Below are positions 2,163-28,707 of a stretch of 29,228 nucleotides of DNA, one piece after another. Position 1 is the first letter of the stretch. Each line of letters opens with the position of its first letter. This DNA comes from a virus. A model generated the notes under the pieces. The model worked only from the letters and a program-made list of their open reading frames with translations, was not told where the DNA came from and ran no database searches. The stretch lies in the IMG/VR virus record IMGVR_UViG_3300032323_003623, positions 1-29,228 of that record, one strand, 5' to 3'. The position numbers and the translations under genes were made by a program.

Positions 2163-3344
2163 ATGGCTAAAGAAAAATCATCTGTTAAAAAAGAATTCTC
2201 GTTTTTAGACCTTGACAAGCAACTTTCGAAGATCGAAGGATTTGAAGCAGGGTCTATCTTAGAAGAAAACGAATTCTCTGAAGTTACTGAGTGGATTGGA
2301 ACTGGTAACTATGTTTTAAATGCTCAACTTTCAGGAAGTCTTTTTGGGGGTGTGGCTAATAATAGGTCTATGGGTATCGCAGGGGATCCACAGACAGGAA
2401 AAAGCTTCTTGTGTATGAACATAGTGAGGGAATCACAGAAACAAGGATATAACGTAATCTATTGTGATACTGAGGGTGCTATTGATAGATCAATGGCTAA
2501 AAAATTCGGGATTGATACCAATACTGTTAGATACCAACCAATTAAATCTATTTCAGATTTTAAAATATTTGTTGCAAACCTAGTTGATCAAATTAAGAAA
2601 GCTAGAAAAGAAGGAGCAGATCCTAAAATTCTACTAGTTCTAGATTCTCTGGGTATGCTTACAACCATGAAAGAATCTGCTGATGCTTTAAAGGGTAAAA
2701 CAGTGATGGACATGGGTATTAGATCCAAGGAGATGAGAGGATTATTCAGAGAAATCACATTAGATCTAACCGGTGTTAGAATTCCTTTGATCTGTACTAA
2801 TCACACAACAACTGCTGGAATAGGAAGCTTTATGACAACTAAAGAGGCATCAGGTGGTGATGGTCCTATTTTCTCTATGAGTAATGTTATTATGCTGTCT
2901 AAAGCACAGCTCAAGGATAGCAACGATAAGAAAACTGGAATTATTGTTACCTCCACGCCGAAAAAGACGAGATTTACTAGACCATATCCAACAAAATTCC
3001 ACATTTCATTCATTAATGGTATGAACCCATACGTTGGACTGGAAGAATTTATTTCTTGGGACGTGTGTGGAATAGAAAGAGGAAAGTTAGAGGTTGATAA
3101 AAAAACGGGTGAATTGGAATTCACACCAAGTGCTTCTTCCACAAAATGGGCGGTTGCTCACTTAGGAAAGTCAATATTTTCTTCCCAGTTATTTACTCCT
3201 GAGGTTTTCACCGAAGAGGTATTAAGAAAAATTGACGAAAAAGCGATTAAGCCACACTTCTTACTACCAGATCTATTCGATATGGAAGAACTTGATGCTG
3301 TTGTTAACGGCGAAGAAACAGAGGAAGAAGATGGACAAGAATAA
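2163..3344 (+). CDS. uvsX: UvsX/RecA-like recombinase
   Basis: This 393-residue RecA-superfamily ATPase is of the size of T4 UvsX. It forms filaments on single-stranded DNA and catalyses strand exchange in recombination-dependent replication and repair. The Walker A loop is GDPQTGKS (residues 74-81), the catalytic Glu region follows in DTEGA (about 102-106), and the Walker B strand is ILLVLD (156-161). Further on there is the RecA-like CTNHTT segment. The C-terminus ends in a very acidic tail, as in T4 UvsX. It heads a run that continues with a gene-41-type helicase and gp47/gp46, the same functional neighbourhood as in T4. The ATG at 2163 follows an A-rich leader; a 113-residue open frame on the other strand (2801-3142) is a shadow. 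Confidence 0.92.
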   Translation: MAKEKSSVKKEFSFLDLDKQLSKIEGFEAGSILEENEFSEVTEWIGTGNYVLNAQLSGSLFGGVANNRSMGIAGDPQTGKSFLCMNIVRESQKQGYNVIYCDTEGAIDRSMAKKFGIDTNTVRYQPIKSISDFKIFVANLVDQIKKARKEGADPKILLVLDSLGMLTTMKESADALKGKTVMDMGIRSKEMRGLFREITLDLTGVRIPLICTNHTTTAGIGSFMTTKEASGGDGPIFSMSNVIMLSKAQLKDSNDKKTGIIVTSTPKKTRFTRPYPTKFHISFINGMNPYVGLEEFISWDVCGIERGKLEVDKKTGELEFTPSASSTKWAVAHLGKSIFSSQLFTPEVFTEEVLRKIDEKAIKPHFLLPDLFDMEELDAVVNGEETEEEDGQE

Positions 3345-3626: not shown

Positions 3627-4931
3627 ATGGTAAATTCTCATTTAGAAAATGTTTGGTTTTGTAGTATAGTATCTGACGCAATTTATATTGAGTCCGCTAA
3701 ACCATCCTTTTTCAAAGATCTTAGGTATCAAGAGGCATTCAAGATAGTAAAATCCTTCTGGAAAAAGTATTCACAAATACCTTCAACTCAACAAGTTAAG
3801 GAGATCGTGAAAATGCTAAAGCTGGGGGATAAACTTCCGGAAAATCAGGTCGATACTATTTTTGACATAAAACTAAATGAGTATGATCCAGAATGGTTAA
3901 GGGAAAATACCGAATCGTGGATAGAATGGAAGAATCTAGAGCAAAGTGCAATGGATGCCATTACGTATATCAAATCCACTGAGGTTAGTCCGGAAAACAT
4001 TAAAGATGTAGTTAACACGTTTAAAACGATAGTTAATGAGAGAAACAGCTTGGATTTTTCCTTCGATCTTGGATTAGATTTCACAGATCCGGATAACCAC
4101 AAACAACCAAGATCTAGCACGTTTTCATCCGGGTATGATTTTATAGATCTTGTGCTTGGCGGAGGATTTTCTGCAAAGAATCTTTACGTATTCCTCGGAC
4201 AGCCTAAGGTTGGTAAGACGTTATGGTTAGGTAACATAGCAGCTCAAGCAATCAGAGCATCCAATAACGTGGCAATTATCACCCTTGAACTTGGCGATAG
4301 AAAGTATATGAAAAGAGTTGGTGCTAACCTTCTGGGAATTAAAATGTCTGATTACAATAACGCAACAGAAGACGGAGAGATAATCAAGAAGAAAATCCGA
4401 AATATGGCATTTGACAACCTTTCTATTCCTGGACAACTTTATATTAAGGAGTTTGGAACTAGCCAGGCTTCTGTCTTAGATGTTGAAAAATGGTTAAGAA
4501 AGGTAGAGGAAGTTAAGGGTATTAAATTCAAGATAGTTGTTATTGACTATATCAACATCATGAAAAACTGGAGAAATCCTAACAGCGAAAATACCTACAT
4601 GAAGATCAAGCAAATTGCTGAGGATCTAAGAGCAATGGGTCAAAGAAATCAATGGGCTATTGTTACTGCAACACAGACTAAACAATCAGAGTTTGATGCC
4701 ACAGATCTTTCAATGAATTCAGCATCAGAATCATCCGGTCTAGTTGCAACGGTCGATGGTATGTTTGGTATCATACAAGATCCTTTAATGTATTCAAATA
4801 ACGAATATAAGCTTAAGGTCTTAGCAAACAGAGATGAGGGATATAAAAATTCATATAAGAAATTTACGGTAGATTATAGCCACATGAGGATCGCAGAGGA
4901 TCCCAACTCCCAAATAATGAATGAAAATTAA
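3627..4931 (+). CDS. DnaB-family replicative helicase (T4 gp41-like)
   Basis: The 434-residue protein has the two-domain plan of DnaB/gp41 helicases. A helical N-terminal region (about 1-140) leads through a linker into a RecA-like motor domain. The motor has Walker A GQPKVGKT (191-198), the catalytic Glu in IITLELGD (Glu221), Walker B IVVIDYIN (303-310) and a downstream ATQTKQ segment typical of motif H3. It would unwind DNA 5' to 3' at the phage fork as a hexamer working with a primase, which is not in this window. It starts two bases after the preceding stop, and its own stop overlaps the next ATG (TAATG). Confidence 0.9.
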   Translation: MVNSHLENVWFCSIVSDAIYIESAKPSFFKDLRYQEAFKIVKSFWKKYSQIPSTQQVKEIVKMLKLGDKLPENQVDTIFDIKLNEYDPEWLRENTESWIEWKNLEQSAMDAITYIKSTEVSPENIKDVVNTFKTIVNERNSLDFSFDLGLDFTDPDNHKQPRSSTFSSGYDFIDLVLGGGFSAKNLYVFLGQPKVGKTLWLGNIAAQAIRASNNVAIITLELGDRKYMKRVGANLLGIKMSDYNNATEDGEIIKKKIRNMAFDNLSIPGQLYIKEFGTSQASVLDVEKWLRKVEEVKGIKFKIVVIDYINIMKNWRNPNSENTYMKIKQIAEDLRAMGQRNQWAIVTATQTKQSEFDATDLSMNSASESSGLVATVDGMFGIIQDPLMYSNNEYKLKVLANRDEGYKNSYKKFTVDYSHMRIAEDPNSQIMNEN

Positions 4932-5389
4932 TGAAACAAAAAAAGCTAATAGAGGAGGTAGAATTACCCGAAACAGAAGCGATACCAATAGATCCCTCAT
5001 ATGCAGAGTATTTACAAGTAGAGGATACCTCAAAAGATTACAGATCTTTCAAAGCATCTAAAGATGAAGATGACGAAGATTATTTACATATTTCAGCATT
5101 AAATGATTTTGTTTATGAAATATTTCACAAATCAAGATGGTGTGCATTAGGACCGAATAAAAAAATACCTAAGGATTTAATTCCTTTTGTATTCCAGGAT
5201 CTTTTAGAAGAAATGGAAACAACGGAATTCACTATGGTAGAAAAATTCGTTTCTATTTGTGATTTTATGAACGTAGGCTATTTAAAGGCATACGAATTAA
5301 TCCACATGAAATACAAAGAAATTATAGTTAACGAAATGGATCAAAAATTTGGAATAGTTTCCAGAAAGAAGATCAAGAAAATATTCTAA
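4931..5389 (+). CDS. Hypothetical protein between helicase and gp47-like genes
   Basis: The 152-residue protein is not recognised. Residues 1-55 are acidic and probably flexible; residues 60-150 form an apparently all-helical domain (DFVYEIFHKSRW, FVFQDLLEEM, EKFVSICDFM), ending in a basic tail with KKIKKIF. There is no membrane segment. Its start shares one base with the stop of the helicase gene, and it ends one base before the gp47-like gene, so it is firmly inside the replication operon. By position it could be a helicase accessory or loader protein (in the role of T4 gp59), but this is inference from location only. Confidence 0.75.
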   Translation: MKQKKLIEEVELPETEAIPIDPSYAEYLQVEDTSKDYRSFKASKDEDDEDYLHISALNDFVYEIFHKSRWCALGPNKKIPKDLIPFVFQDLLEEMETTEFTMVEKFVSICDFMNVGYLKAYELIHMKYKEIIVNEMDQKFGIVSRKKIKKIF

Positions 5390-9323: not shown

Positions 9324-9328
9324 CGCCG

Positions 9329-9335
9329 ATATATA
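9329..9335 (+). promoter_or_regulatory. ATATATA box very close to a start codon
   Basis: CGATATATAGGAACG surrounds this box, six bases before the ATG at 9342 and directly after a terminator. Like the copy at 8159 it is followed by AGG and implies a leaderless or nearly leaderless message. Confidence 0.45.
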
Positions 9336-9341
9336 GGAACG

Positions 9342-11498
9342 ATGACAGATCCTATTATTTTTTCAAGCATAGGTAACTATAGAATAATTAGCTATAATTC
9401 CGCATTCAAAGACGTTAGCAGGTTTAGAGGGTGGATTATAGAAACTTCGGGCGAGGTTGAAAACTCTAGCTATCTGTTAAGGGAATTTCGCTGGAGCACA
9501 AACAACAGCAATTGGTCCTTGTGGATGCCTCTATTACAGGAAAATGTTGATGTAATAGAGCTGGATCCTAATAATGATTTTTATATTGAGGTCAAGTTTA
9601 CTGCTCATTCGGATGAAGATTCGAGTCCGTATTTTCCAGAGGGAACTAATTTAGAAAATCCGATAGTTTTAGAAAACTTCGATCTCGATCTACAATACAG
9701 AGAGATAGATTACAGAGATCTTGCAACCAAACCAGCTATTCTTTGCTCTAAGGAGCTTTATACAAAATCGGTAATATTTAACCAAAACTGTGGAGATAGA
9801 CTGTTTAAACCCTATGAGGTAAATAGGGGAATAAACATATATCAGGATCTAAGCAGAACCGTTAATACCCTTTTTGGACACGAGGTAAACTATTATTCGA
9901 TCCAGCCTAACGGAAGAGGGAAAGATGTTGTATTGAGAGAGTACAGTCTCTTTGACGTTGTTGCTGAGAAATGTGTTAAAGTAATGGTTCCTGGGAATAA
10001 TTTTCCAGACAATAAACCAATTTACGATACATTCGGTATACAATTTGAACAACCTCTAGAAGTACACATCGACAGAAAATATTTTGAAAGTATTTTTGGG
10101 AAAGGATCAGCACCTAGAAAAAGGGACATTATTTTCTTCCCTCTTACAAACAGAATCTACCAAATAGAATCAACATATCTGCACAGGGATTTTAATTTAT
10201 ATCCGGTATTTTTTAAATGTCAATTGATGAAGTATGAGGTTAAACAAAACACCCAATTCATTAATAAGACCGCGGAGAGCGAATTACACGATTACACAGT
10301 AAATACCAAGGATCTATTCGGGGAAGAAACACAAGAAGAAATAGAAAAGGTAACAAAACCTCGGCAGTATTTCGTTTCTTCACAGAGGAGAGCTGAGGAT
10401 CCTACTAGAAATTATATAGATCAATATTTACCTATTATAGAATTTGATCTAAATAATAATTACACAATAGTATTTAACAGCTATTATGATTTAGAAAGGT
10501 ATATCTATGATGATCCACTATCTACATCAAAGACAGAAGAACAGAGAGAAGCAGTCAGATATAAATCAGTACCATCCCTTGGCGATAATGACGAATTATC
10601 TTTTACGTGCTGGTTTAAAACAAGAAACTATGTAGACAAAACAAAGCTTGTAAATAAACCATCAGCAAAGCTATCGATATCTTCATATGTTCAGAATAGC
10701 GGAACTATAACATACTCATCATCAACACCCCATAAATTAAGTATGGCAGATGGGTATGTTTCTATATTTGCAGATTCAGCAAGATCTGGAGGATTCAAGA
10801 TCTTAAGTATACCTGACCAATATTCATTTAGAGTTGCAGATAATGGATCTGCAATATCGGGATCAATAGCAACTTGGAGATTCCAAAAAGCTCAGGCAAG
10901 AAATTTAATATATGGAAGAAAGGATGGGGAGGGTATCTCTATACAAATGATATGGTCAGGATCTAATCTTACACCAACAAGTACTGAATATTTACAAACA
11001 GGATCGTTTAGAATACTAATTAATGAATTAGAAATATTATCTCCTTTTGGTGCTGGTACTAATTCACCGATAGGGAATTTCATACCTACCCTTGATGATT
11101 GGTATGGATTTGTATTTAATTTCTCTAATATATTTAAACAGTATTCAATAAATGTTTGGCAAATGCTTTACGATCCAGAAAATCCTGATGCTCAAACATC
11201 AGATCTTGGTATAGTTCATTTTAAAGAGGGGTTAATTTCACAAAAGTATACATACCAGATACCTTCTGATATAGAACAAAGCAACCAAGTAGAAACTTGG
11301 AAAACTGATAATAACTCATATAAAATACTGGGAAGTCCTTTGTATTTAACGAACTTAAGAATCTTTCAAAATATGATTGAAAAAGAAAAGCAATCAGCAA
11401 TTCTAAATCAAAACGTAGTTGGAGATTCACAATTAGCAATAATTATCGATAATGCTAAGCCTGTTCTTAAACTTCCTAAAATAGCTAAAAACAGATAA
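9342..11498 (+). CDS. Large neck-like structural protein with LamG-like C-terminus
   Basis: The 718-residue protein appears to be a fusion. Residues 1 to about 310 resemble T4-type neck protein gp14: the FGIQFEQPLEVHIDRKYF stretch, then PRKRDIIFFPLTNRIYQIES and a closing strand set with FFKCQLMKYEV follow the order of gp14 proteins, where the RDIIFFPL segment is characteristic. From about 360 onward the chain is beta-rich with features of a concanavalin/LamG-type fold: DELSFTCWFK, FRILINELEI, DWYGFVFNFSN, SINVWQML and LYLTNLRIFQN. Inside it (about 440-520) is an inserted segment with PHKLSMADGYVSI and YSFRVAD, like a small domain seen in many tail proteins. Neck gp14 proteins are normally about a third of this length. 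The function beyond virion structure is inferred. Confidence 0.6.
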   Translation: MTDPIIFSSIGNYRIISYNSAFKDVSRFRGWIIETSGEVENSSYLLREFRWSTNNSNWSLWMPLLQENVDVIELDPNNDFYIEVKFTAHSDEDSSPYFPEGTNLENPIVLENFDLDLQYREIDYRDLATKPAILCSKELYTKSVIFNQNCGDRLFKPYEVNRGINIYQDLSRTVNTLFGHEVNYYSIQPNGRGKDVVLREYSLFDVVAEKCVKVMVPGNNFPDNKPIYDTFGIQFEQPLEVHIDRKYFESIFGKGSAPRKRDIIFFPLTNRIYQIESTYLHRDFNLYPVFFKCQLMKYEVKQNTQFINKTAESELHDYTVNTKDLFGEETQEEIEKVTKPRQYFVSSQRRAEDPTRNYIDQYLPIIEFDLNNNYTIVFNSYYDLERYIYDDPLSTSKTEEQREAVRYKSVPSLGDNDELSFTCWFKTRNYVDKTKLVNKPSAKLSISSYVQNSGTITYSSSTPHKLSMADGYVSIFADSARSGGFKILSIPDQYSFRVADNGSAISGSIATWRFQKAQARNLIYGRKDGEGISIQMIWSGSNLTPTSTEYLQTGSFRILINELEILSPFGAGTNSPIGNFIPTLDDWYGFVFNFSNIFKQYSINVWQMLYDPENPDAQTSDLGIVHFKEGLISQKYTYQIPSDIEQSNQVETWKTDNNSYKILGSPLYLTNLRIFQNMIEKEKQSAILNQNVVGDSQLAIIIDNAKPVLKLPKIAKNR

Positions 11499-14108: not shown

Positions 14109-14119
14109 CAAATTATTTG

Positions 14120-14126
14120 ATATATA
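14120..14126 (+). promoter_or_regulatory. ATATATA box, distal of two before the sheath gene
   Basis: TTGATATATACTT surrounds this box, about 70 bases before the sheath ATG and 11 bases after the terminase stop. A hairpin at 14133-14165 would lie in the 5' leader of any message started here. Confidence 0.4.
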
Positions 14127-14165: not shown

Positions 14166-14174
14166 CTCAAAAAG

Positions 14175-14181
14175 ATATATA
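14175..14181 (+). promoter_or_regulatory. ATATATA box, proximal of two before the sheath gene
   Basis: AAGATATATACAAG surrounds this box, 17 bases before the sheath ATG at 14199. Confidence 0.5.
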
Positions 14182-14198: not shown

Positions 14199-17100
14199 AT
14201 GGCAAAGAAGTTAACTCTGGATCTATCCGTTTTTAAAAGTTCTGGTGTCTACACCTTAGAATTTGACGCTTCTGAAAACATTGTAGTAAATCCTCAAACT
14301 GTTAGATTGGTAGTTGGTTTTTCAACTAAAGGACCTTTTAACACCCCGGTTTATGTACCTGACCTTCAGACAGCTATCAAAGTTTTTGGTGATATTGACA
14401 GAGCTTTAGAGAAAAAAGGATCATTCTTTCATCGATCTATATTCACGTGCTTAAACAGTGGACCTGTTTTTGCTTTGAATTTACTTAAATTAAATAATAC
14501 GGTTACAGAAACTGGAACCCCTGATGTAGCAAACGGCTCAGACGTTGCTAGATATAGAGCGTTTTCAATCGATACTGCGGAAGCTAATGGTGCGAACTCA
14601 ACAGCGGATTATACAAGATCCAATGCACTTTTGCCAAGACAGGATAAATTAGTTTCATCTTATTATAATAAAGAAAAATTCTGGTTCCCTGATCCGAATA
14701 TGCTTCTTGCCACAATAGATACCACGGAACAGTCCAAATTATTCAGCTTAGTCAATCTTAGTCAAAATCCGATTAGTATTATAATTAAGAAATCACTTGA
14801 TGCTAGAATTCCTATTAAAGGATTTGATATTACTGCTCAAGAGTACTTCGGAGCAAACAATGTTCCGTCCTTCATGAACCATAACGATTACATCTCAGAT
14901 TATTTTATAGATGTTATCGCAGTTAGTGGAAATTGGTCAAATTATTCAGATCTTTCTTTAGACCCTGTTTATTCTTCATATTTTACATCTAAAGGATTTA
15001 TAAAATCTAGAATTGATGATTTTCTAGCATTGAACGAGGTAAATGTTGTTCTTACGACTACGGGATGTTTAATTCCAGATTTTGCTGACCAAAACGGGAT
15101 CACTCAATACATCAAGACATTGATCAACAATCAGGTAGGTCAAACCGGAATTCTTTGCGCAGTAAACGAAGAAGCCCTTGATGATCTTGAAAATAATGAA
15201 TCTTTTATAGATTTAGTTGGACACCATTTAACAGGATCTCTAGATCCAGGATCTATCGAAATCAATAATATAGATTTCCTAAGCTACAGTGCACCTTTAA
15301 TTGCTGATTTTTCATATTCAGTAAATAGTCAAACTGTAAGTGATGTAGTTTCTCCAAATCTTCAGTTACTTGAAGTTGGAACAACGTACGAGGATGCTTT
15401 AGCAAATCCTGGAGTTAGCGGTGTTGATTCGGCAGATTTCCAGGCATACAATTATCAAAATTTAGATGCTGGATTACCTTATATACAAACTAATTTCCAA
15501 GGGGTTACAGCAGGTAACAGAAAAACTGCATTAAGAGAATTCTTAGCTGTAACATCAACTTCAACTGGTCCTAAATTTATTTTAGGAAAGGTTACTTCAA
15601 CCCTAGCAGGAAACGTAGAAGCTAGAAAATATTTTTCAGACGGCGATATAGTTAAATTAAGAGTAGAAGAAGTTAAGGAGGTTACAGTTGCACCAGGAAA
15701 TGTTCAGGTTAGAATTAAATGGTCACATCCATTATTTAAATCCACAACACATCTGGTTGAACCTTATGACGAAACAAACTTAGCTTCAGGAAAATATCAA
15801 TTTGGTAAATCAGATTACTTTGATATCGTAGATCCTATCGAAACTAGCCCAGGTACTTTAGGAAGTCCAATAGTTATAGGAAGCCAAACAATCGGTAACT
15901 TTAATTATTTTGGATATTCAGAAGCTAAAATCTTTACAGATTGGGAAAAAGGATTAATTAGCGATGGCGATGTTATACACAAAACCTACGACGGATCTTT
16001 ACTTCAATATATTAAATTAGAAAAATCTATTGATAGAGACGGATTCCAAGTTCTTGAGCTAAAAGCTTATGTAGATTCAGATTTAACCACTCAGGAAACT
16101 GTAGTAGGAACTGGATTAAGCTACCTTACAAATGCAACGGGTGTTGATGATACTATCGATCAAAATGGATATGATTTAAACATTGTATCTCTGGCAGGAA
16201 ACCTAAACCAATTTATAGAAATTGAATCTATACCTACCCCTAACGTTCAAGTTGAAATGACCTTAGCAAATGTTACTTCATCTGGATTAGCAGTTGGAGA
16301 TCTTTTAGTTTCTGAAGACATTGATCCTATCACAGGATCGAACAGATTGGCTAGAGTAATAATATCTAAAAGAAATACAACAGGACCTGGAACATACAGT
16401 ATATACGTTACAACCGATAGACCTATCAAGATCTACTCCGGACAAAGAGTTAACAAATTTAGACCAATTCATAAATTTGTAAATAATCTTAACTTTACAT
16501 ATCTTCCTGGATTCCAATTAAAGAATACACATAAACCAAACGGTAATGATGATAGATTGGATGAGATCCTAAACGTATTAACAGAAACAAATATCGCTAG
16601 AACCCTAGCAGATAGAAACATAATCACATTTAGATATGTTGTAGATACGTTTGATGGACAAATTCAAACAGATTCTAAACAGCAGCTAGCAAATCTTGCT
16701 AAAAATAGACAAAAATGTCTAGCATTAATTAATGCACCTTCAATGGAGAAATTTAAAAACTCCGTTGATCCTAGATTTACTACTGCACCATCTGCTACTG
16801 ATCCAGCACCTTTACTAAATGCAAGATATATTGCAGACGGAGGTAACCTTGATCTAAATCCTTCATTTAGATTTACACTACCTAGTGAAGATAACGGAGC
16901 TAAATTCTGCGGTGTGTTTGCTCCATTCTTAACTATTAGAGAAAATGGTAAAAACTTTAATATTCCACCGGCAGCTCACGTAAGTAACAATTTCATTAGA
17001 AAATTTGTTACAGGTGAACCTTATTCAATTGTAGCTGGTCAAAAAAGAGGGGTACTTTCAGGATCCAACCTAGTTGGTCTTGAATATGATTTCTCTCAAG

Positions 17101-17549
17101 AAGATAGAGATTTCTTAGAGCCATTTGGTATCAACCCTATAGTAAGAAAAAGAAATATCGGATTGGTAATCTTTGGTAATCAAACCGGATATCAAAGAAC
17201 TAACTCTGCATTTAATAACTTGCACGTTAGAGATCTATTGATCACACTAGAAGAAAGTGTAGAAGATATCTTATCTAACTACTTATTTGATTTTAACGAA
17301 GATTCAATCAGACTTGAAATTAAGACTATAGTAGATAACTACTTATCAGGAGTTAAGAACGTAGGAGGAATTTATAATTTCTTAACTATCATGGACTCTT
17401 CTAACAACACACCTGCTGTTATAGATCAAAATATCGGTATTATCGATATAATCATAGAACCAGCTAGGGGTATACATAAATTTATAAACAGAATGACAGT
17501 TGCTAGAACAGGTGGTATAGCTTCTGGTGGATTTATTCAATTCAGTTAA
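14199..17549 (+). CDS. Tail sheath protein (gp18-like), very large
   Basis: The 1116-residue protein is the contractile tail sheath. The C-terminal part (about 880-1116) holds the conserved sheath domain. It includes GVFAPFLTIRENG, PPAAHVSN, GINPIVRKRNIGLVIFGNQT, a long helix region with VRDLLITLEESVEDIL, and a final IDIIIEPARGIHKFINRM strand set. Arms of this domain link neighbouring subunits. The N-terminal segment (SGVYTLEFDAS, then VGFSTKGPFNTPVYV) is also typical. T4 gp18 has about 660 residues, so roughly 450 extra residues lie in the middle (about 350-800) and probably make surface domains. Two ATATATA boxes precede it, consistent with strong late expression; the tube genes follow. Confidence 0.92.
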   Translation: MAKKLTLDLSVFKSSGVYTLEFDASENIVVNPQTVRLVVGFSTKGPFNTPVYVPDLQTAIKVFGDIDRALEKKGSFFHRSIFTCLNSGPVFALNLLKLNNTVTETGTPDVANGSDVARYRAFSIDTAEANGANSTADYTRSNALLPRQDKLVSSYYNKEKFWFPDPNMLLATIDTTEQSKLFSLVNLSQNPISIIIKKSLDARIPIKGFDITAQEYFGANNVPSFMNHNDYISDYFIDVIAVSGNWSNYSDLSLDPVYSSYFTSKGFIKSRIDDFLALNEVNVVLTTTGCLIPDFADQNGITQYIKTLINNQVGQTGILCAVNEEALDDLENNESFIDLVGHHLTGSLDPGSIEINNIDFLSYSAPLIADFSYSVNSQTVSDVVSPNLQLLEVGTTYEDALANPGVSGVDSADFQAYNYQNLDAGLPYIQTNFQGVTAGNRKTALREFLAVTSTSTGPKFILGKVTSTLAGNVEARKYFSDGDIVKLRVEEVKEVTVAPGNVQVRIKWSHPLFKSTTHLVEPYDETNLASGKYQFGKSDYFDIVDPIETSPGTLGSPIVIGSQTIGNFNYFGYSEAKIFTDWEKGLISDGDVIHKTYDGSLLQYIKLEKSIDRDGFQVLELKAYVDSDLTTQETVVGTGLSYLTNATGVDDTIDQNGYDLNIVSLAGNLNQFIEIESIPTPNVQVEMTLANVTSSGLAVGDLLVSEDIDPITGSNRLARVIISKRNTTGPGTYSIYVTTDRPIKIYSGQRVNKFRPIHKFVNNLNFTYLPGFQLKNTHKPNGNDDRLDEILNVLTETNIARTLADRNIITFRYVVDTFDGQIQTDSKQQLANLAKNRQKCLALINAPSMEKFKNSVDPRFTTAPSATDPAPLLNARYIADGGNLDLNPSFRFTLPSEDNGAKFCGVFAPFLTIRENGKNFNIPPAAHVSNNFIRKFVTGEPYSIVAGQKRGVLSGSNLVGLEYDFSQEDRDFLEPFGINPIVRKRNIGLVIFGNQTGYQRTNSAFNNLHVRDLLITLEESVEDILSNYLFDFNEDSIRLEIKTIVDNYLSGVKNVGGIYNFLTIMDSSNNTPAVIDQNIGIIDIIIEPARGIHKFINRMTVARTGGIASGGFIQFS

Positions 17550-17589: not shown

Positions 17590-18162
17590 ATGGCAGGATT
17601 ACCACATTATACATCTTCTAAGGCGGCGGTTAATAAGTTCGAACCGGTTTTCATGAACCAATTCGAGGTATTAATCTCCCCTCCTGCTGCTGTAGTAGCT
17701 CCACAGGGAAACCCAAATAATGGAAACATTTTACTAGAGCATGTGAAGAGTATAGAAGGATTAGGAGTTGATCAGAACCCAGGAGAGACCTTTCAACAGT
17801 ACAAAAATGCTAAAAGGTATTATGCAGGGGCAAAACCTCAACAAACAGGATTTGATCTATCGATAAACTTCGAGGTCAATCTAGATGAAAACAATTCAAT
17901 GTACGTTTTCAAAACAATGAGACAATGGGCGGATCTAATTTATAATCCACTTACTGGGGCTCTTGGTCTTAAAAGAGACTATACTGGAACTATAGTAATA
18001 AGTGTTTTTAATAAAGCGGGAGATGTTCACAGAAGAATAACTTGTAAAGATTGTTTTATTATGAGCCCCTTATCTCAAATGGATCTAAACTATACAAATC
18101 AAAATTTATTTACCTTAAGAGTTCAGTGGGCAGTTGATTATTTTGATGACGTATTCTTATAA
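17590..18162 (+). CDS. Tail tube protein (gp19-like), copy 1
   Basis: The 190-residue protein has the size and layout of T4-type tail tube protein gp19, which stacks in rings to form the inner tube through which DNA passes. The FMNQFEVLISPP strand near the start, the RQWADLIYNPLTG segment (about 112-124) with the following strand TIVISVFN, and the closing DYFDDVFL are typical. The gene follows directly after the sheath, as in T4 (18 then 19). A second gene with the same N-terminus (MAGLPH) and the same segment order follows 12 bases later. Overlapping frames were not seen. Confidence 0.92.
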   Translation: MAGLPHYTSSKAAVNKFEPVFMNQFEVLISPPAAVVAPQGNPNNGNILLEHVKSIEGLGVDQNPGETFQQYKNAKRYYAGAKPQQTGFDLSINFEVNLDENNSMYVFKTMRQWADLIYNPLTGALGLKRDYTGTIVISVFNKAGDVHRRITCKDCFIMSPLSQMDLNYTNQNLFTLRVQWAVDYFDDVFL

Positions 18163-18174
18163 TAAAATTAAAAA

Positions 18175-18753
18175 ATGGCAGGATTACCACATTTTACTAG
18201 TGCAAAAGCGGCAGTAAGTCTATACGAACCGGTATACTTAAATCAATTTGAGGTTATAATTCAACCTCCCGCTGCGGTTTCTAACCCTGCAGGTAATGCT
18301 GGAAGAAGCTTATTGGTTGAAAATATCACACAAATATCAGGGCTAGAGGTTGACAAAACACCAAGCCCGGTAGAGCAATTTTACAAATTTGCAAGAAGAA
18401 GATATGCAGGTGCTGGGGTAGAACAAACGGGGGCTAAACTTAGAATTAACTTCCAAACCAATTTAGATGATAATAACTCCAATTATGTCTATAAAACATT
18501 AAGACAATGGTCAGATTTAGTTTATAATCCTTTGACCGGTGCAATGGGAATTAAATCTAATTATGCTGGAGGTGCTTATGTCCTAGTTAGCATTTTTAAT
18601 AAACAAGGAGATGTTTTTAGAAGAATGAAATTCTTAAACTGCTTTCCAACAAAACCTATTGATCCTATGCCTTTGAGCTACGAGAACGTTGGCTCATTAT
18701 ACCAAATAAGTGCAGAATTCAGAGCGGATTACTTCGAAGACGTGTTTAACTAA
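18175..18753 (+). CDS. Tail tube protein (gp19-like), copy 2
   Basis: The 192-residue protein is a clear paralogue of the preceding tube protein. It shares MAGLPH, LNQFEV, PPAAV, RQWSDLVYNPLTGA, SIFNKQGDV and the ending DYFEDVF. The two differ most in the region of about residues 37-75 and near the C-terminal third, where loops would face neighbouring rings or the sheath. It may alternate with the first copy, form the distal or proximal end of the tube (as gp54 does as an initiator in T4), or be a specialised cap. Its leader is A-rich with no separate ATATATA box, so it is probably co-transcribed with copy 1. A terminator follows at 18779-18808. Confidence 0.9.
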   Translation: MAGLPHFTSAKAAVSLYEPVYLNQFEVIIQPPAAVSNPAGNAGRSLLVENITQISGLEVDKTPSPVEQFYKFARRRYAGAGVEQTGAKLRINFQTNLDDNNSNYVYKTLRQWSDLVYNPLTGAMGIKSNYAGGAYVLVSIFNKQGDVFRRMKFLNCFPTKPIDPMPLSYENVGSLYQISAEFRADYFEDVFN

Positions 18754-18772
18754 TCTAAAATATTCAAGAAAG

Positions 18773-18779
18773 ATATATA
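18773..18779 (+). promoter_or_regulatory. ATATATA box abutting a terminator
   Basis: AAGATATATAAAAGG surrounds this box, which runs straight into the hairpin at 18779-18808. If it is a promoter, the first transcribed bases lie inside the terminator stem. Confidence 0.3.
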
Positions 18780-21830: not shown

Positions 21831-21860
21831 TTACGTTTTTTTATTTCGAAACTTTTCTTG

Positions 21861-21872
21861 TATATTTGTGTA
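21861..21872 (+). promoter_or_regulatory. Host-type promoter -7 box (TATATTTG)
   Basis: TATATTTGTGTA is identical to 284-295. It lies 15 bases before the ATG at 21888. A small GGAAAA/TTTTCC stem (21810-21827) and a T-run at 21836-21843 upstream may terminate the virion transcript. Together they suggest a switch from the virion unit to a unit read by the host polymerase. Confidence 0.5.
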
Positions 21873-21887
21873 GTATACTAAAAGGAG

Positions 21888-22136
21888 ATGGCGCAAATAA
21901 AAAAAATCTACACAGTTACAGAAGATTTAAGAAAAATCATCTCCGATTTTTTAGAAAGTCCCTTTGATAATACAAAGGAATCGATCGAATTGATTAAAAG
22001 TAAAGAGTCATTTACTGAAGACGAAATAAATCAAATTATTAATCTTCTTGGTAAGTTTCCCGCTTATTTAGTTTACCCCATAATAGATTCATTTAAAGGA
22101 AACTTAAAAATAGAAGAAATTGAGCAACCAGAATAA
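21888..22136 (+). CDS. Small hypothetical protein, 82 aa
   Basis: No family is recognised. The protein is helical and acidic (EDLRKIISDFLES, then FTEDEINQIINLLGKF), with no membrane segment. It follows a host-type TATATTTG box and begins the unit that contains the deaminase and sigma genes. AAAGGAG touches the ATG at 21888 too closely to act as a Shine-Dalgarno sequence. The dCMP deaminase frame starts at TTG 22120, overlapping its last 17 bases. Confidence 0.65.
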   Translation: MAQIKKIYTVTEDLRKIISDFLESPFDNTKESIELIKSKESFTEDEINQIINLLGKFPAYLVYPIIDSFKGNLKIEEIEQPE

Positions 22137-22590
22137 CTACGCTAGGCACACTGAGGATAATTGTCCAGATTTAAAACAATTCAATCTGGATGTTGTATAT
22201 CTAAAAATGGCAAGGGAATGGTCTAAGAATTCTCATTGTAAAAGAAGTCAGGTAGGATGTTTGGTAGTTAAAAATAAAACTATAATTTCTGATGGATATA
22301 ATGGAACACCAACCGGATTTCCTAATATTTGCGAGGATCTAGAAAATAACACATTAGCATCAGTTCTTCATGCGGAAGCTAATGCTATTACTAAACTAGC
22401 AATGAATACTGTTTCATCACACGGGAGTACTATGTACGTTACTCTTTCTCCTTGTTTTGAATGTTCCAAATTAATTATACAATCAGGAATTAAAAGAATA
22501 GTATTTTCTGAATTTTATAGAAAAATTGAATCACTAGATCTGCTTTCACAAGCGGGTATAGAAATTGTTTATATTAACTTACAACCCTAA
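22120..22590 (+). CDS. dCMP deaminase
   Basis: The 156-residue enzyme is of the zinc-dependent cytidine/deoxycytidylate deaminase superfamily and would convert dCMP to dUMP for dTMP synthesis. The zinc site is complete: HAE (84-86, with Glu86 as the proton shuttle) and PCFEC (111-115). The N-terminal SQVGCLVV strand and the GYNGTPTGFPN loop (59-69) are characteristic of dCMP deaminases rather than cytidine or tRNA deaminases. Phage enzymes of this type are often allosteric with dCTP/dTTP. The start is TTG 22120, overlapping the preceding gene; a later start would leave out only weakly conserved residues. It precedes the sigma gene by 12 bases. Confidence 0.9.
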   Translation: MSNQNNYARHTEDNCPDLKQFNLDVVYLKMAREWSKNSHCKRSQVGCLVVKNKTIISDGYNGTPTGFPNICEDLENNTLASVLHAEANAITKLAMNTVSSHGSTMYVTLSPCFECSKLIIQSGIKRIVFSEFYRKIESLDLLSQAGIEIVYINLQP

Positions 22591-22602
22591 ACCAAATTAG
22601 CC

Positions 22603-23226
22603 ATGGCAAAAAGCATCCAGGAATTAGCAGAGAAATTTTTAGAGACCTCGCAAGAAAAAGATTTTAAATCACTTTATGACAGAATTAAGCCTGGATTGCT
22701 TAACCACTGTAAATCAATTTTAATTGATGAGGAGGTTGCACAGGATGCTGTTTCTAAAACGTTTGAAAAAATATGGGTTAAAGTTGCTCAGTATGATCCG
22801 GCAAGGGGAAATTTTTCTACATGGGCATACAACATAGCAAGAAATGAATCTTTATTAATCAAGAAAAATTCTAAAAAATTCACTCCTTTAGTTTATGAGT
22901 CCGTTGAACTTGACGGAAGGGACTACGATGAATTTATTCCTCTTTCCCACATTACACCAGAAGATATTTTTGCAGAACCTGAGTGGGAGATAAATAATCA
23001 GGAAGGGGATTTTGATGATTTGTATGAGGTTGTTCTTGAAAAAATGAGACATCTTCCTGCAATCTACAAGGATATTCTTATGGACCGAGAAATTCATAAA
23101 ATGAAATATCAGGACATTGCAGACAAGTATGATATGAAAAAGCGCGCGGTTGCAACAAGAATAAGAAGAGCAAGAATTAAAATCAGAGAAATGTTTCCTG
23201 GTATTAAATTAAATTTTATAGATTAA
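22603..23226 (+). CDS. ECF-type RNA polymerase sigma factor
   Basis: The 207-residue protein has both parts of an extracytoplasmic-function sigma factor. Region 2 (about 21-90) shows EEVAQDAVSKTFEKIW and then NFSTWAYNIARNE, the part that contacts core polymerase and melts the -10 region. Region 4 (about 140-196) has LPAIYKDILMDREI followed by a helix-turn-helix (MKYQDIADKYDMKKRAVATRI) and a basic recognition helix end. The linker between (about 92-138) is acidic. In T4 the late sigma gp55 lacks a normal region 4; this protein has one, so promoters it reads should have a -35 region as well. It is the natural candidate for reading the ATATATA boxes in this window, but that link is inference. 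Confidence 0.88.
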   Translation: MAKSIQELAEKFLETSQEKDFKSLYDRIKPGLLNHCKSILIDEEVAQDAVSKTFEKIWVKVAQYDPARGNFSTWAYNIARNESLLIKKNSKKFTPLVYESVELDGRDYDEFIPLSHITPEDIFAEPEWEINNQEGDFDDLYEVVLEKMRHLPAIYKDILMDREIHKMKYQDIADKYDMKKRAVATRIRRARIKIREMFPGIKLNFID

Positions 23227-23227
23227 T

Positions 23228-23689
23228 ATGATTTCAAACACTTTTAAAATTTTCGGGGTCATTCAAGATATTAGAAATTATTTTTTTCTAAGGAGAATAA
23301 TCAAAAGGGAGATGATGAATTCCCCGCTTTGGTCCAAAAACAATCTTAGGGTAGATTGGATAGGCAGAATCTATACTGTTATGAATCTTCCACCAGAGGT
23401 TACTATGGCACCGGATCTTCCGAAAGAGCTCTGGCCAGCATATTTGGTTGATCAGTCCAAGGGATTAAACGAGTATTTAACATCCCTTAATTTACATGAG
23501 ATTATAATACCTGAATATAAGGAAATCCCAGAATCTACCTCTTATTTGTTAGTTTATTATCCATACTTTAGAAATCTTACCCTGTGGTGGATTATTTCAA
23601 GAACTATTTTTTGGAGTAGCGCTATAATAATAGAAACAAAAACCCATTGGATATCAAGCGGGTTTAATTGGATAATATCATTTTTTTAA
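23228..23689 (+). CDS. Hypothetical protein, 153 aa
   Basis: I do not recognise this protein. It has a basic helical N-terminus (about 15-30), a VDWIGRIYTVMNLPPE segment (about 43-58), a central Pro/Leu-rich part with LNEYLTSLNLHEIIIP, and a strongly hydrophobic, Trp/Ile/Phe-rich C-terminus (about 105-153). The end could be one or two membrane-associated segments or the buried core of a virion protein. The start is ATG 23228, one base after the sigma stop, and the stop abuts the TTG of the next gene. Its place in the sigma-nuclease run suggests co-expression with them. Confidence 0.7.
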   Translation: MISNTFKIFGVIQDIRNYFFLRRIIKREMMNSPLWSKNNLRVDWIGRIYTVMNLPPEVTMAPDLPKELWPAYLVDQSKGLNEYLTSLNLHEIIIPEYKEIPESTSYLLVYYPYFRNLTLWWIISRTIFWSSAIIIETKTHWISSGFNWIISFF

Positions 23690-24436
23690 TTGGAATCAGA
23701 AGAAATTGTAAGAGAAAGCCACCCGTGGGGTAGAGCGTACGTTGTAACTAGATTGGACGGCACCAAGCTGATTTTTCCATCGGTCACCACTGTTTTAAAG
23801 CTCATTACTGAGCCTAAATTCAAACCATTAAGAGAAAAGTTCGGAGAAGCAAGATGGCAAAAAATACTCGATGATGCATCATTTAGGGGAACTGTTATGC
23901 ATAATATGCTTGAGCATTTTCTTTTAGAGTATGCAGAATCCAGATCAGTAGAAAAGAGCTTAACCATTGCACAGGATATAGCAAAAGATGAAGAGGTAAG
24001 TTCGCCAGACAAGTTACCACTGATTAAAAGGGGAAGGGACCTCTTTTGGAATTTTTACCACGAGGAATTTTGGGGAGGAATAAAGAAAGTATTACATAAT
24101 GAGCTTTTTTTGTGGACCGATTTTAGAGGTGGTTGGGCAGGTGCAACTGACTTTATTTATTTAGACCTTAATGATTTAACGGTTGTAATAGATTTTAAGT
24201 CATCGAGTTCTCCAAAAGACGAGGAAGATATTTTATCATATAAATGTCAGATATCTGCCTATATGTTTGCTTATGCTGAAAGATATGGGGTAATTCCAGA
24301 TAGAGGAGAAATATGGATAGCAAATGAGAAGGATTCAAAACTACAAAGATTTGTAGTTACGAAAGATGAGTTTAAAATATACCTCAGAAAATTCTTAGAA
24401 TTGCTTGCCGAATTCAGGGAAATAAACGGGATTTAG
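23690..24436 (+). CDS. RecB/Cas4-like PD-(D/E)XK exonuclease
   Basis: The 248-residue protein has the motif series of small RecB-type nucleases: an N-terminal PSVTTVLKLI segment (30-39), the GTVMHNMLEHF helix (67-77) with His71 and Glu75, then GATDFIYLD (151-159, Asp154), VIDFKSS (166-172, with Asp168 and Lys170) and a helix with Gln187 and Tyr191 (QISAYMFAY). This would be a metal-dependent DNA exonuclease or endonuclease, acting in host DNA breakdown, recombination or repair. The start is TTG 23690, directly after the preceding stop with no gap. An antisense frame at 23686-24012 is a shadow. Confidence 0.85.
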   Translation: MESEEIVRESHPWGRAYVVTRLDGTKLIFPSVTTVLKLITEPKFKPLREKFGEARWQKILDDASFRGTVMHNMLEHFLLEYAESRSVEKSLTIAQDIAKDEEVSSPDKLPLIKRGRDLFWNFYHEEFWGGIKKVLHNELFLWTDFRGGWAGATDFIYLDLNDLTVVIDFKSSSSPKDEEDILSYKCQISAYMFAYAERYGVIPDRGEIWIANEKDSKLQRFVVTKDEFKIYLRKFLELLAEFREINGI

Positions 24437-24464
24437 TGAAACTTAACCCCCGTAAAAACTAAAA

Positions 24465-24472
24465 TATAAATA
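24465..24472 (+). promoter_or_regulatory. TATAAATA box (T4-late-like)
   Basis: TATAAATA, identical to the T4 late promoter core, lies 11 bases before the ATG at 24484. In such AT-rich DNA a single match can arise by chance. Confidence 0.3.
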
Positions 24473-24483
24473 AAATTAAAAAC

Positions 24484-24936
24484 ATGTCAGAAGAAGTTTT
24501 ACAAGATGTAGTTATTGACGAAGCTAAAGTAGCTGCACTACAAAAAGCATTAGAAGCTAAAATGTCTGAACTTTCCAATAAAGTTTATGCTGTTTCTATG
24601 AATGCAGAATCTTTAGAGGTTTATTCTAAAGTTATTGAATCAATTACATGGAAAGGTAAAGAAGGATTAGGAGTTTTAGAAATTACTAAGAAGTTAAAAG
24701 AGGTTACCAAAAATGGTATATCAAACGATGCAATCTTTCTAAACGCACTTACAATAGAAGCAAGTCATTATTTCCTAAACAGATACGAATCAAAAGGAAG
24801 TGATGATGCAGAAAGATTTATTGATTTATACAAAAAATTAGAGCAAGCACTGTCTGCAGTTTCGCAAGATAACAAAGATTTAGAAGATCTTAACAAGGAT
24901 TTAGCTGCTGCACAACAAGGATTAGAGGCGGTATAA
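24484..24936 (+). CDS. Helical hypothetical protein, 150 aa
   Basis: No family is recognised. The protein is almost entirely helical and has no membrane segment or Cys. The N-terminal helix (about 13-35) and the C-terminal one (about 115-147, with DNKDLEDLNKDLAAAQQ) look like coiled coils flanking a compact middle part. The A-rich leader and codon choice suggest good expression. It is a single-gene unit between a TATAAATA stretch and the terminator at 24962-24994. A virion or chaperone role would fit but cannot be shown. Confidence 0.7.
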   Translation: MSEEVLQDVVIDEAKVAALQKALEAKMSELSNKVYAVSMNAESLEVYSKVIESITWKGKEGLGVLEITKKLKEVTKNGISNDAIFLNALTIEASHYFLNRYESKGSDDAERFIDLYKKLEQALSAVSQDNKDLEDLNKDLAAAQQGLEAV

Positions 24937-24994: not shown

Positions 24995-25000
24995 CTGTGG

Positions 25001-25007
25001 ATATATA
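25001..25007 (+). promoter_or_regulatory. ATATATA box ahead of the membrane/coiled-coil gene
   Basis: TGGATATATATTG surrounds this box, right after a terminator and 24 bases before the ATG at 25032. Confidence 0.45.
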
Positions 25008-26440: not shown

Positions 26441-26995
26441 ATGCCAAACGTATTGTCAACAGATCCTAGATTTATTAAGTATGCTAATTGTAATCCAGAA
26501 AAGCAAAAGAAAATAGTTTTTGAGGGTTCCTTTTTAAAAATTATTATGGGATCCCAGGTTTTAGACATGGTGGATCTTTCTAAATTTTTTCACCCAGCAT
26601 CCATAAATGGAGGTAGTTTTAAAAAAAGAGTTTATATTCCATCAGGTGGATCTTATAATCTATATGGTGGAAATATTGCACAGGATCAGGGGGAAGTCTC
26701 TATGATTGTTATTAGGGTAAAGTATGACCCTTCTCTTCCAGAAGTAGAAAAATTAATCTATTGGGAGTACGAAGGAAATTTATCCCCATGTAAAAATCTT
26801 TTATTTTTAACAGGTAAGACATTAGATCACGTAAAACACCATGGCTGGGATTTAGAACCATACTCACCAGAGACATCTACATTTTCTCCGGTTCTAAGCC
26901 CCCAACCCACATCTCCGGATTTTAGTTTAGGTGGGATAATACTAAAAAATACAACATTAAAAGAGGTTGAAGTGGAAATATTAGTAATGAATTAA
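26441..26995 (+). CDS. Beta-rich tail-fibre-associated protein A
   Basis: The 184-residue protein is beta-rich and has no signal peptide. Its order of segments (a SFLKIIMG strand near 30, RVYIPSGGSYNLYGG around 62-76, VIRVKYD, a FLTGKT strand and a last GGIILKNTTLKEVEVEI strand pair) is repeated by the next gene, so the two are paralogues. By its position before Gly-Thr-Ser-Gly-containing fibre-like proteins I infer a distal tail or fibre role. The stop codon overlaps the next ATG (TTAATGG). Confidence 0.65.
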   Translation: MPNVLSTDPRFIKYANCNPEKQKKIVFEGSFLKIIMGSQVLDMVDLSKFFHPASINGGSFKKRVYIPSGGSYNLYGGNIAQDQGEVSMIVIRVKYDPSLPEVEKLIYWEYEGNLSPCKNLLFLTGKTLDHVKHHGWDLEPYSPETSTFSPVLSPQPTSPDFSLGGIILKNTTLKEVEVEILVMN

Positions 26996-27627
26996 TGGCA
27001 AAAGCACCACTCATATGTCAAGCAGATCTAGCTAACACCCTTATAGAGGGGGGTCATTTTGATAAATGCACTCTGTTAGTAACTAAAGATTCAACGGTAG
27101 TTAATTCATTTAATTTCTGTGATTTTTCCTTGGACATAGACGAATTTTTCACACAGAATTTAACACTGGGTCCGGGAAGTGCATTTCTTCTGGATGACGG
27201 GGGTTTATCTAATTCTTTTGGAGAGGTTAAATTTCTTTTAATTAAGGTTTCATACCCAACAACTTTCACAAGGGATAGTGACAAATATATTGATCTAATA
27301 CACGAAAGCTCAACTTACCCGATTGGAGAATTACATATATGGACAGGAAATCCGGGTGATTCTGCAGGAATGGGAATAGCAGTGTCTCCTTCAGGGGATC
27401 CACAATATAGTACAGGAGGGATAGTATTACACAATCCACACTCAAATTCAGTCAGCATTAAAATTATAGTGGCATCAAGTGCATCACAGGGAGTTTCAAC
27501 AAATACCGGAACATCAGGAACTGGAGGAAATGGAACCTCAGGAACGAGTGGTTCTTCAGGAACTAGCGGGGTAATTGGTAATGCGGATTATAATGGAACA
27601 AGTGGAAGTTTAATAACAATATTATAA
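26995..27627 (+). CDS. Fibre-associated protein B with Gly-Thr-Ser-Gly tail
   Basis: The 210-residue protein repeats the fold order of the preceding product (TLGPGSAFLLDD, FLLIKVSY, ELHIWTGN and GGIVLHNPHSNSVSIKI). It then adds a C-terminal stretch of about 35 residues rich in Gly, Thr and Ser (GTSGTSGSSGTSG at about 181-193). Such repeats are common in fibre proteins of Bacteroidota phages and form flexible or collagen-like stalks. The paralogous pair probably arose by gene duplication followed by gain of the repeat tail. It ends 12 bases before the next fibre gene. Confidence 0.7.
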   Translation: MAKAPLICQADLANTLIEGGHFDKCTLLVTKDSTVVNSFNFCDFSLDIDEFFTQNLTLGPGSAFLLDDGGLSNSFGEVKFLLIKVSYPTTFTRDSDKYIDLIHESSTYPIGELHIWTGNPGDSAGMGIAVSPSGDPQYSTGGIVLHNPHSNSVSIKIIVASSASQGVSTNTGTSGTGGNGTSGTSGSSGTSGVIGNADYNGTSGSLITIL

Positions 27628-27639
27628 GACAATAAAAGA

Positions 27640-28707
27640 ATGGCATATTCCAATATATCAATACTTACGGATCAAAATCTTTCTTTCCAGGTATATGATT
27701 TTATTCAATTATCACACGATGCTAATAATTATATTATAGGTAGAGTAGTTAGTTATAATCCATCTACCGGTGATTTAACATTTACCCCTATTAAATTTTA
27801 CGGATCAGGATCTTATAACACATGGAATATTTCGTTGACCGGAGACCCTGGCGAAGGATTAACTGGAACATCCGGAACATCCGGAACATCCGGAACATCT
27901 CTGAGGGTTTCTAATTCTGGACCTGATAGAGTATTAAGATTAGGTCCAGATGGACAAATAATTTATGGTGCTACAAATTTAACTTTTGATGGACGTACGT
28001 TATCGATAGATCCTTTTGAGTACAGTACAGGTGAAAATCCCGTTTATAGAATTGTTTATCATAGCGATGGGACTGCAGGAACCGCTGGTATAGTCATAAG
28101 AGGTCCAATTCCAGGACAACCATATTCAGGGATAGTAGAAAACAGGGTTCCTCACGAATACCAGCATCAATTCGTGGTAGGAGGAAATAATATAGCACAT
28201 ATAGATTCCCAGGGATTACACGTCCAACAAGCTTTAATAGCAGACGGCGAGGTTTATTTCGAGGGAATAGAAGAAGGTAATTCAGAAACCAAATTTTTGG
28301 TTTGGGATAATTCAACCAGCGGAAATGGATTGGTAGGAAAAGTTAAATGGAAAACAATTTCAGGATCTCCTGGGGGAAGTGGATCTTCAGGAACATCTGG
28401 AACCTCCGGGACTAGCGGATTTCTAAAAGACTGGGAAACTGGAAACGAAATAATAGTAAATAGTAATGAGCAATTAACGTTTTCCGGGGACTATGTTTTA
28501 GAAAATTCCGAGATGCTAATAGAATCAACCGAAACTGAAATTGAATATTCCACAAATAAATACTTCAAAAAAGAAGGAAAAATATTCATAGGAGGTAACC
28601 TATTAGTCAAAGACAGTTACATAGAAAACAATGGTTTAATAAGTGTGGGCGGTCAAGTTATACTAATGGGCAGCTCACAAATAGAAGGAACAGGAATAAT
28701 AATATAA
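27640..28707 (+). CDS. Tail-fibre-like protein with two Gly-Thr-Ser-Gly linkers
   Basis: The 355-residue protein is beta-rich and modular. Residues 1-70 form a small domain (FQVYDFIQLSHD, IIGRVVSYNPSTGDLTF). A GTSG linker (about 75-87), encoded by four tandem 9-base units, separates it from a middle domain (about 88-245, with RVLRLGPDGQIIYG and IDSQGLHVQQ). A second GTSG linker lies at about 248-262, before a C-terminal domain of repeating short strands (LLVKDSYIENNG, GGQVILMGSSQIEG) that looks like a beta-solenoid or trimeric fibre end. Role: host-binding fibre or adhesin, inferred from this layout. The next gene starts six bases later. Confidence 0.75.
   Translation: MAYSNISILTDQNLSFQVYDFIQLSHDANNYIIGRVVSYNPSTGDLTFTPIKFYGSGSYNTWNISLTGDPGEGLTGTSGTSGTSGTSLRVSNSGPDRVLRLGPDGQIIYGATNLTFDGRTLSIDPFEYSTGENPVYRIVYHSDGTAGTAGIVIRGPIPGQPYSGIVENRVPHEYQHQFVVGGNNIAHIDSQGLHVQQALIADGEVYFEGIEEGNSETKFLVWDNSTSGNGLVGKVKWKTISGSPGGSGSSGTSGTSGTSGFLKDWETGNEIIVNSNEQLTFSGDYVLENSEMLIESTETEIEYSTNKYFKKEGKIFIGGNLLVKDSYIENNGLISVGGQVILMGSSQIEGTGIII
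27865..27900 (+). repeat. Four tandem 9-base units (GGAACATCC)
   Basis: Three exact GGAACATCC units plus one GGAACATCT lie end to end, encoding Gly-Thr-Ser repeats. Related Gly/Thr/Ser-coding stretches lie at about 27535-27570 and 28377-28421. The number of units could change by slippage. Confidence 0.9.

Follow-up and report, generated by a model that had tools for sequence, protein, structure and literature searches.

Which promoters does a phage-borne ECF-type sigma factor read in a phage of T4 type, and at what stage of infection? The question arises from an ORF at positions 22603–23226 (+ strand) of a 29-kb IMG/VR virus record carrying T4-type genes (uvsX, DnaB-like helicase, gp46, gp47, terminase, sheath and tube); we refer to the whole 29,228-nt stretch as the window. 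Tandem tail-tube-like paralogues (17590–18162 and 18175–18753, both phrog_32623) and fibre-like genes with GTSGTSG low-complexity repeats (26995–28707) are also seen in it. A sequence-only reading of this DNA had cast the sigma factor as a late-gene switch in gp55's place, reading recurrent ATATATA promoters with a classic −35 contact. Comparison with relatives, among them contigs of 219 and 245 kb that are for the most part colinear with the window (~69–77% DNA identity), points to another assignment: the ECF (group IV) sigma is probably the phage's middle-gene sigma, with a gp55-type sigma on the late genes. The sigma proteins were established by homology and the motif classes by statistics, position, conservation and gene association; from sequence, we infer which sigma pairs with which motif, in what order they act and that the host core is used.

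The window encodes a two-domain ECF-type sigma factor

The ORF has an ATG start and encodes 207 aa. Its Pfam matches to Sigma70_r2 (residues 24–83, E 2.8e-13) and Sigma70_r4_2 (residues 143–193, E 2e-8) both lie above the gathering cut-off, its score with the NCBIfam sigma70-ECF superfamily (TIGR02937) is 69.8 bits (cut-off 42.9), and the PHROG 'RNA polymerase sigma factor' matches it with E 2e-20. The best NCBIfam subfamily is Sig70_bacteroi1, yet the score falls under that subfamily's own cut-off. In the AlphaFold model, helical sigma2 (residues 5–89) is joined to sigma4 (137–196) by a linker of 47 disordered residues (91–137), within the limit of about 50 residues given for ECF sigmas (PMC8103513). 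Foldseek with this model retrieves ECF sigmas (SigW, SigE, SigH) as the leading PDB matches, and in a sequence-profile search SigW is the best PDB match. Sigma2 and sigma4 are the only promoter-binding domains, which assigns the protein to group IV (ECF); later ECF definitions retain the two-domain criterion alone, the CGT −10 being an older hallmark since dropped (PMC8103513). The Pfam region 4 match also sets it apart from gp55, which lacks that region. Pfam, NCBIfam, PHROG and AlphaFold thus bear out the earlier identification of a phage-encoded two-domain ECF sigma.

The homologue search that the same reading had called for yielded 23 viral relatives in IMG/VR, 61–99% identical. Among the genome sequences found, full-length identity is ~31% at best, and the sigmas of Lak and other huge phages are only 24–33% identical. 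Some of these phages have several region-2 matches, not all strong: five in LR756500 and four in Lak-B2.

A second, gp55-type sigma is encoded by relatives

A Pfam region 2 scan of ten relatives detected the window-type sigma in all ten and, in nine, a second region-2 gene ~10–16 kb downstream of the first. Its 118-aa product belongs to the T4 gp55 family (phrog_234, E 6e-17) and has region 2 only; it shares the core with T4 gp55 (32% identity) and lacks the C-terminal tail, which in T4 binds the clamp (PMC7892883). The gene lies past the position matching the window's end, and the absence of gp55 from the window is uninformative because the window stops short of the gene's place. A gp55 homologue in nine of the ten relatives tested runs counter to the notion that the ECF sigma stands in for gp55. 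One of the ten relatives scanned (G005; L027 1165–1869, − strand) has, as its third sigma, a distinct two-domain protein of 234 aa.

Following the sequence-only reading, gp33 and gp45 were also sought. For gp33, the search gave one weak profile hit (phrog_254, E 0.0037, in a relative), by which the 152-aa protein encoded at 4931–5389 (+) is a candidate gp33-like coactivator, not an established one: HHalign against six gp33 sequences returned 0.4% probability (with shallow alignments), and the AlphaFold model had no PDB fold match. Four families were searched for the gp45 clamp, none giving a match above cut-off: phrog_223 (run without a positive control), PF02916 and PF00712 had no match, and PF09116 had one marginal sub-cut-off match inside the DNA-polymerase ORF of one relative (G001). 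Since a clamp loader is present in relatives, a divergent clamp likely exists.

In T4, the middle programme diverts the host sigma by means of MotA and AsiA. Searches that did detect the T4 proteins returned neither above cut-off from six phage records of this study, the 219 and 245 kb contigs among them. Genes 43 and 44/62 of T4 depend on MotA, and the uvsX and gene 55 middle promoters are MotA-dependent (PMC6024815).

Single-box late promoter candidates precede virion genes

GA(A)TATATA occurs seven times on the + strand of the window and never on the − strand, and all seven copies are intergenic (chance placement ~4e-10). Its significance derives from this position and strand rather than from the raw count, which is unexceptional in an AT-rich window (7, against a simulated mean of 2.4 and maximum of 8). 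Clade-wide, 56 upstream regions contain GATATATA where 5 would be expected (first upstream set), and the box commonly lies 24–33 nt ahead of the start codon. The recurrent non-host box of the sequence-only reading is thereby upheld.

The window copies of this class 2 motif, all on the + strand, comprise GAATATATA at 576–584, upstream of ORF 612–989 and present in 7/7 orthologous upstreams; GATATATA at 1818–1825, upstream of ORF 1850–2038; a box at 9328–9335, upstream of the neck-like gene 9342–11498 (neck/Hc2 match); two boxes, at 14119–14126 (conserved in 8/8 genomes) and 14174–14181, upstream of the tail sheath gene 14199–17549 (phrog_34521, E 1e-111); and boxes at 18772–18779, upstream of ORF 18846/18856 (6/6 genomes), and 25000–25007, upstream of ORF 25008/25032–26432 (11/13 genomes). 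The annotated genes of this class are virion genes (sheath, neck-like, fibre).

Promoters of the gp55 type are expected to have a single −10 box and no upstream −35. Alignment of 70 late sites revealed no −35 element: upstream columns reached at most 0.14 bits (99.9% null, 0.135), and the slight excess is T-richness ~10 nt upstream of the box. The GATATATA boxes look like T4 late promoters that gp55 would read, and a sigma without region 4 suits a box without a −35. Reading of ATATATA promoters by the ECF sigma through a −35 contact finds no footing in these 70 sites.

A two-block motif with an ECF-like −35 marks replication and nucleotide genes

A further motif, class 3, has the form TTGGAAACT-N13/14-nnnTATAAT. 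Upstream regions came from the window, from seven longer relatives and from six shorter loci (302 after deduplication), and the model was refitted with late boxes masked. Scores above 10 bits were obtained for 47 of the 302 against 2.2 in simulated upstreams, which capture coding and terminator structure only in part, and for 41 against 2.7 when gp55 genes were left out; most sites are no more than 35 nt from the start codon. In a held-out test that was only partly blind, the motif having first been noticed in data that seeded the models, the distant lineages gave 6 hits above 10 bits against 0.4, the top four being gp55 upstreams, and the window with G002 gave 7 class 3 hits against 1.05.

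Four of the five class 3 hits in the window fall in + strand intergenic DNA just ahead of starts. One is TCGGAAACC-N13-TTGTATAAT at 1017–1047 (+, 19.3 bits), upstream of ORF 1066–1335 and present in 7/7 orthologous upstreams. Another, TCGGAAATC-N13-GTCTATAAT at 2111–2141 (+, 17.7 bits), precedes uvsX (2163–3344; phrog_97, E 1e-55) and is found in 5/7 genomes, and a weaker site, AGTGAAACT-N13-AACTAAAAT at 24435–24465 (+, 13.2 bits), lies upstream of ORF 24484–24936, whose orthologues have a listed class 3 site in only 1/10 genomes. Elsewhere in the clade the motif precedes a 179-aa gene (4/4), thymidylate synthase (4/5), the clamp loader (2/2) and DNA polymerase, the last in the single genome where that gene was scored. 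Where class 3 genes have an annotation, it concerns DNA or nucleotides; a Fisher test on annotated genes carries little weight, as these are very few and were chosen post hoc.

Three control phages, unrelated or distant (T4, PTm1 and crAss001), had no class 3 hits within the 31–50 kb sampled of each and no two-domain sigma match in a genome-wide region 2 scan. A distant relative's 31-kb contig (L136) has class 3 hits, yet no two-domain sigma is encoded on it.

The −35 block GGAAAC resembles ECF boxes (SigW TGAAAC, RpoE GGAAC), the published −35 boxes being ATTGAAACCTTT for SigW and GGAACTT for RpoE (PMC8103513), and the −10 is TATAAT or TAAAAT, not the classic ECF CGT. We pair the ECF sigma with class 3 because its region 4 should need a −35, of which class 3 alone offers an ECF-like version; this pairing draws on the −35 resemblance and on co-occurrence within one clade. 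The part of the earlier proposal that gave the sigma a classic −35 contact is accordingly probable, through GGAAAC; the part that placed this contact at ATATATA promoters finds no support, these having no −35.

Upstream of gp55, a small conserved ORF encloses the class 3 match in at least 6 of the 11 genomes examined, and the gp55 promoter, which had at first ranked highest among class 3 cases with 9/10 genomes, was downgraded on that account. In one relative (L107, ~9700–10003) this ORF, which by eye looks like a coiled coil, runs up to the gp55 start and spans the class 3 match. The motif is still kept upstream of gp55 in L129/L130 and in G003 (L132/L133), which are without the small ORF. 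The gp55 gene is thus possibly also under class 3 control, at a site confounded by the small ORF.

The sigma operon has overlapping host-type and ECF-type sites

The sigma gene is preceded by an 82-aa ORF (21888–22136, +), the first of the operon, with no match in a PHROG search, and by a dCMP deaminase gene (22120–22590, +; phrog_174, E 5e-50), and is followed immediately 3′ by a 153-aa ORF (23228–23689, +) with neither a PHROG nor an NCBIfam match. A co-transcribed cognate anti-sigma and positive autoregulation are both common, neither universal, among ECF genes. No anti-sigma family match was obtained with PHROG or NCBIfam for the neighbours at 21888 and 23228.

Upstream of this operon, a class 1 promoter, early and host sigma-A-like (CGTTTTT-N20-TATATTTG, 21832–21868, +, 12.6 bits), overlaps a class 3 site (TTCGAAACT-N14-GTGTAGTAT, 21845–21876, +, 17.0 bits), each present in 7/10 genomes. 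Through the latter the sigma is predicted to autoregulate its own operon. The overlap suggests an early start of the operon that then sustains itself, as argued for phage 7-11; in phiEco32 and 7-11 the phage sigma gene has both host-type and phage-type promoters (PMC4331800).

Class 1 has the form ACATTTTT-N20-TAnATTTG and scores above 10 bits in 25 upstreams against 0.4 simulated. A window example, AAACATTTT-N19-TTATATTTG at 255–291 (+, 23.0 bits), lies upstream of ORF 308–556 and is found in 6/7 genomes. One relative, G003, keeps the sigma and class 3 and lacks class 1 sites scoring above 8 bits. The host −35 is TTG; in the TAnATTTG promoters at 255–291 and 21832–21868 of the window, a conserved (A)CATTTTT block occupies the −35 position. 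The class 1 −7 box, TAnnTTTG, is the one known for Bacteroidota sigma-A (PMC9723704), and since the phage sigma also resembles a Bacteroidota ECF subfamily, the host is probably a member of the Bacteroidota.

Discussion

We propose a relay of three sigmas. Class 1, including the promoter of the operon 21888–23689, would be read by the RNA polymerase of the host carrying the primary sigma of Bacteroidota. The ECF sigma, on the host core, would then read class 3, region 2 contacting the −10 and region 4 the GGAAAC −35, so that its own operon is amplified and genes of replication, recombination and nucleotide metabolism are served: uvsX, DNA polymerase, clamp loader, thymidylate synthase and possibly gp55 are turned on. 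The gp55-type sigma would in turn read the single-box GATATATA promoters of virion genes. A middle role for the ECF sigma is suggested because class 3 genes overlap the MotA-dependent genes of T4 and the six records searched yielded neither MotA nor AsiA.

The late-switch proposal drew on the presence of a two-domain sigma and an ATATATA box in one genome, and TA-richness is indeed common to the late boxes and the −10 boxes of class 3. That the ECF sigma reads the ATATATA promoters with a −35 contact is nevertheless quite unlikely: no −35 is conserved over the 70 late sites, a gp55 homologue exists in relatives, and the two-block class 3 motif, which sits at replication and nucleotide genes and at the sigma operon itself, is a better match. 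Assignment of the ECF sigma to the early, class 1 promoters, with class 3 left to a host ECF sigma or to reading with an activator, would account for the conserved block that class 1 has in place of the host TTG and for the class 1 site at the sigma operon; we judge it unlikely, however, as the class 1 −7 box is that of the host sigma-A (PMC9723704), G003 retains the sigma and class 3 in a genome devoid of class 1 sites above 8 bits, and an early sigma would be unable to switch itself on in the first place.

The class 3 box could also be read by a host ECF sigma. If the phage sigma mainly redirected host regulation or physiology while the phage middle genes were read otherwise, its resemblance to a Bacteroidota ECF subfamily would be understandable, and phage sigmas that alter host dormancy are known in Bacillota (PMC9429907). 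We find this very improbable given that the sigma is kept in 10/10 relatives scanned, colinear with core replication and virion genes, and that many class 3 sites lie in the phage itself. The evidence favours the ECF sigma as probable middle-gene sigma.

Compared with ECF sigmas such as B. subtilis SigW and E. coli RpoE (TIGR02937; Bacteroidota TIGR02985), the window sigma is alike in having sigma2 and sigma4 and a ~47-residue linker, as well as a predicted GAAAC-type −35 and predicted positive autoregulation, and differs in being phage-borne, in having no recognised adjacent anti-sigma and in its TATAAT-like −10. Two features of T4 late transcription recur in the relatives, a gp55 homologue and late promoters that consist of one box with no −35, but their gp55 is only 118 aa and is devoid of the clamp-binding C-terminal tail, and the two-domain sigma is an addition outside the T4 late system of gp55, gp33 and gp45. 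With the MotA/AsiA middle system the gene sets overlap (uvsX, gene 43, gene 44 and possibly gene 55), whereas here a phage sigma is proposed instead of an appropriated host sigma, MotA and AsiA being undetected in relatives. In phiEco32 and 7-11, too, the sigma gene has host-type and phage-type promoters and middle genes are under a phage sigma; these phages are not T4-like, however, and use one phage sigma for middle and late genes, in contrast to the second, gp55-type sigma found here.

Minimal and fuller sigma types, together with gp33, have been reported in jumbo phages of T4 type including Lak and PTm1, and the accessible part of that account of these Group 2 phages assigns the two sigma types no promoter classes and no middle role (PMC7824862). 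Our Pfam region 2 scan found no sigma in PTm1, with a model that barely detects T4 gp55. Sigma-encoding jumbo phages of T4 type are thus already known, and, within the searchable literature, what appears new is the assignment of promoters and the middle role proposed here.

Somewhat speculatively, a T4-type lineage may have captured a host-type ECF sigma that replaced MotA and AsiA, giving a relay of host sigma-A, ECF sigma and gp55; with the late sigma stripped of its clamp-binding tail, late transcription may follow this cascade rather than the replication clamp, a scenario we regard as rather doubtful. If these phages do rely on their own sigma for the same genes, the MotA/AsiA layer would be replaceable while gp55 is kept, and the three motif classes would make the early, middle and late genes of a large group of uncultured phages predictable from sequence.
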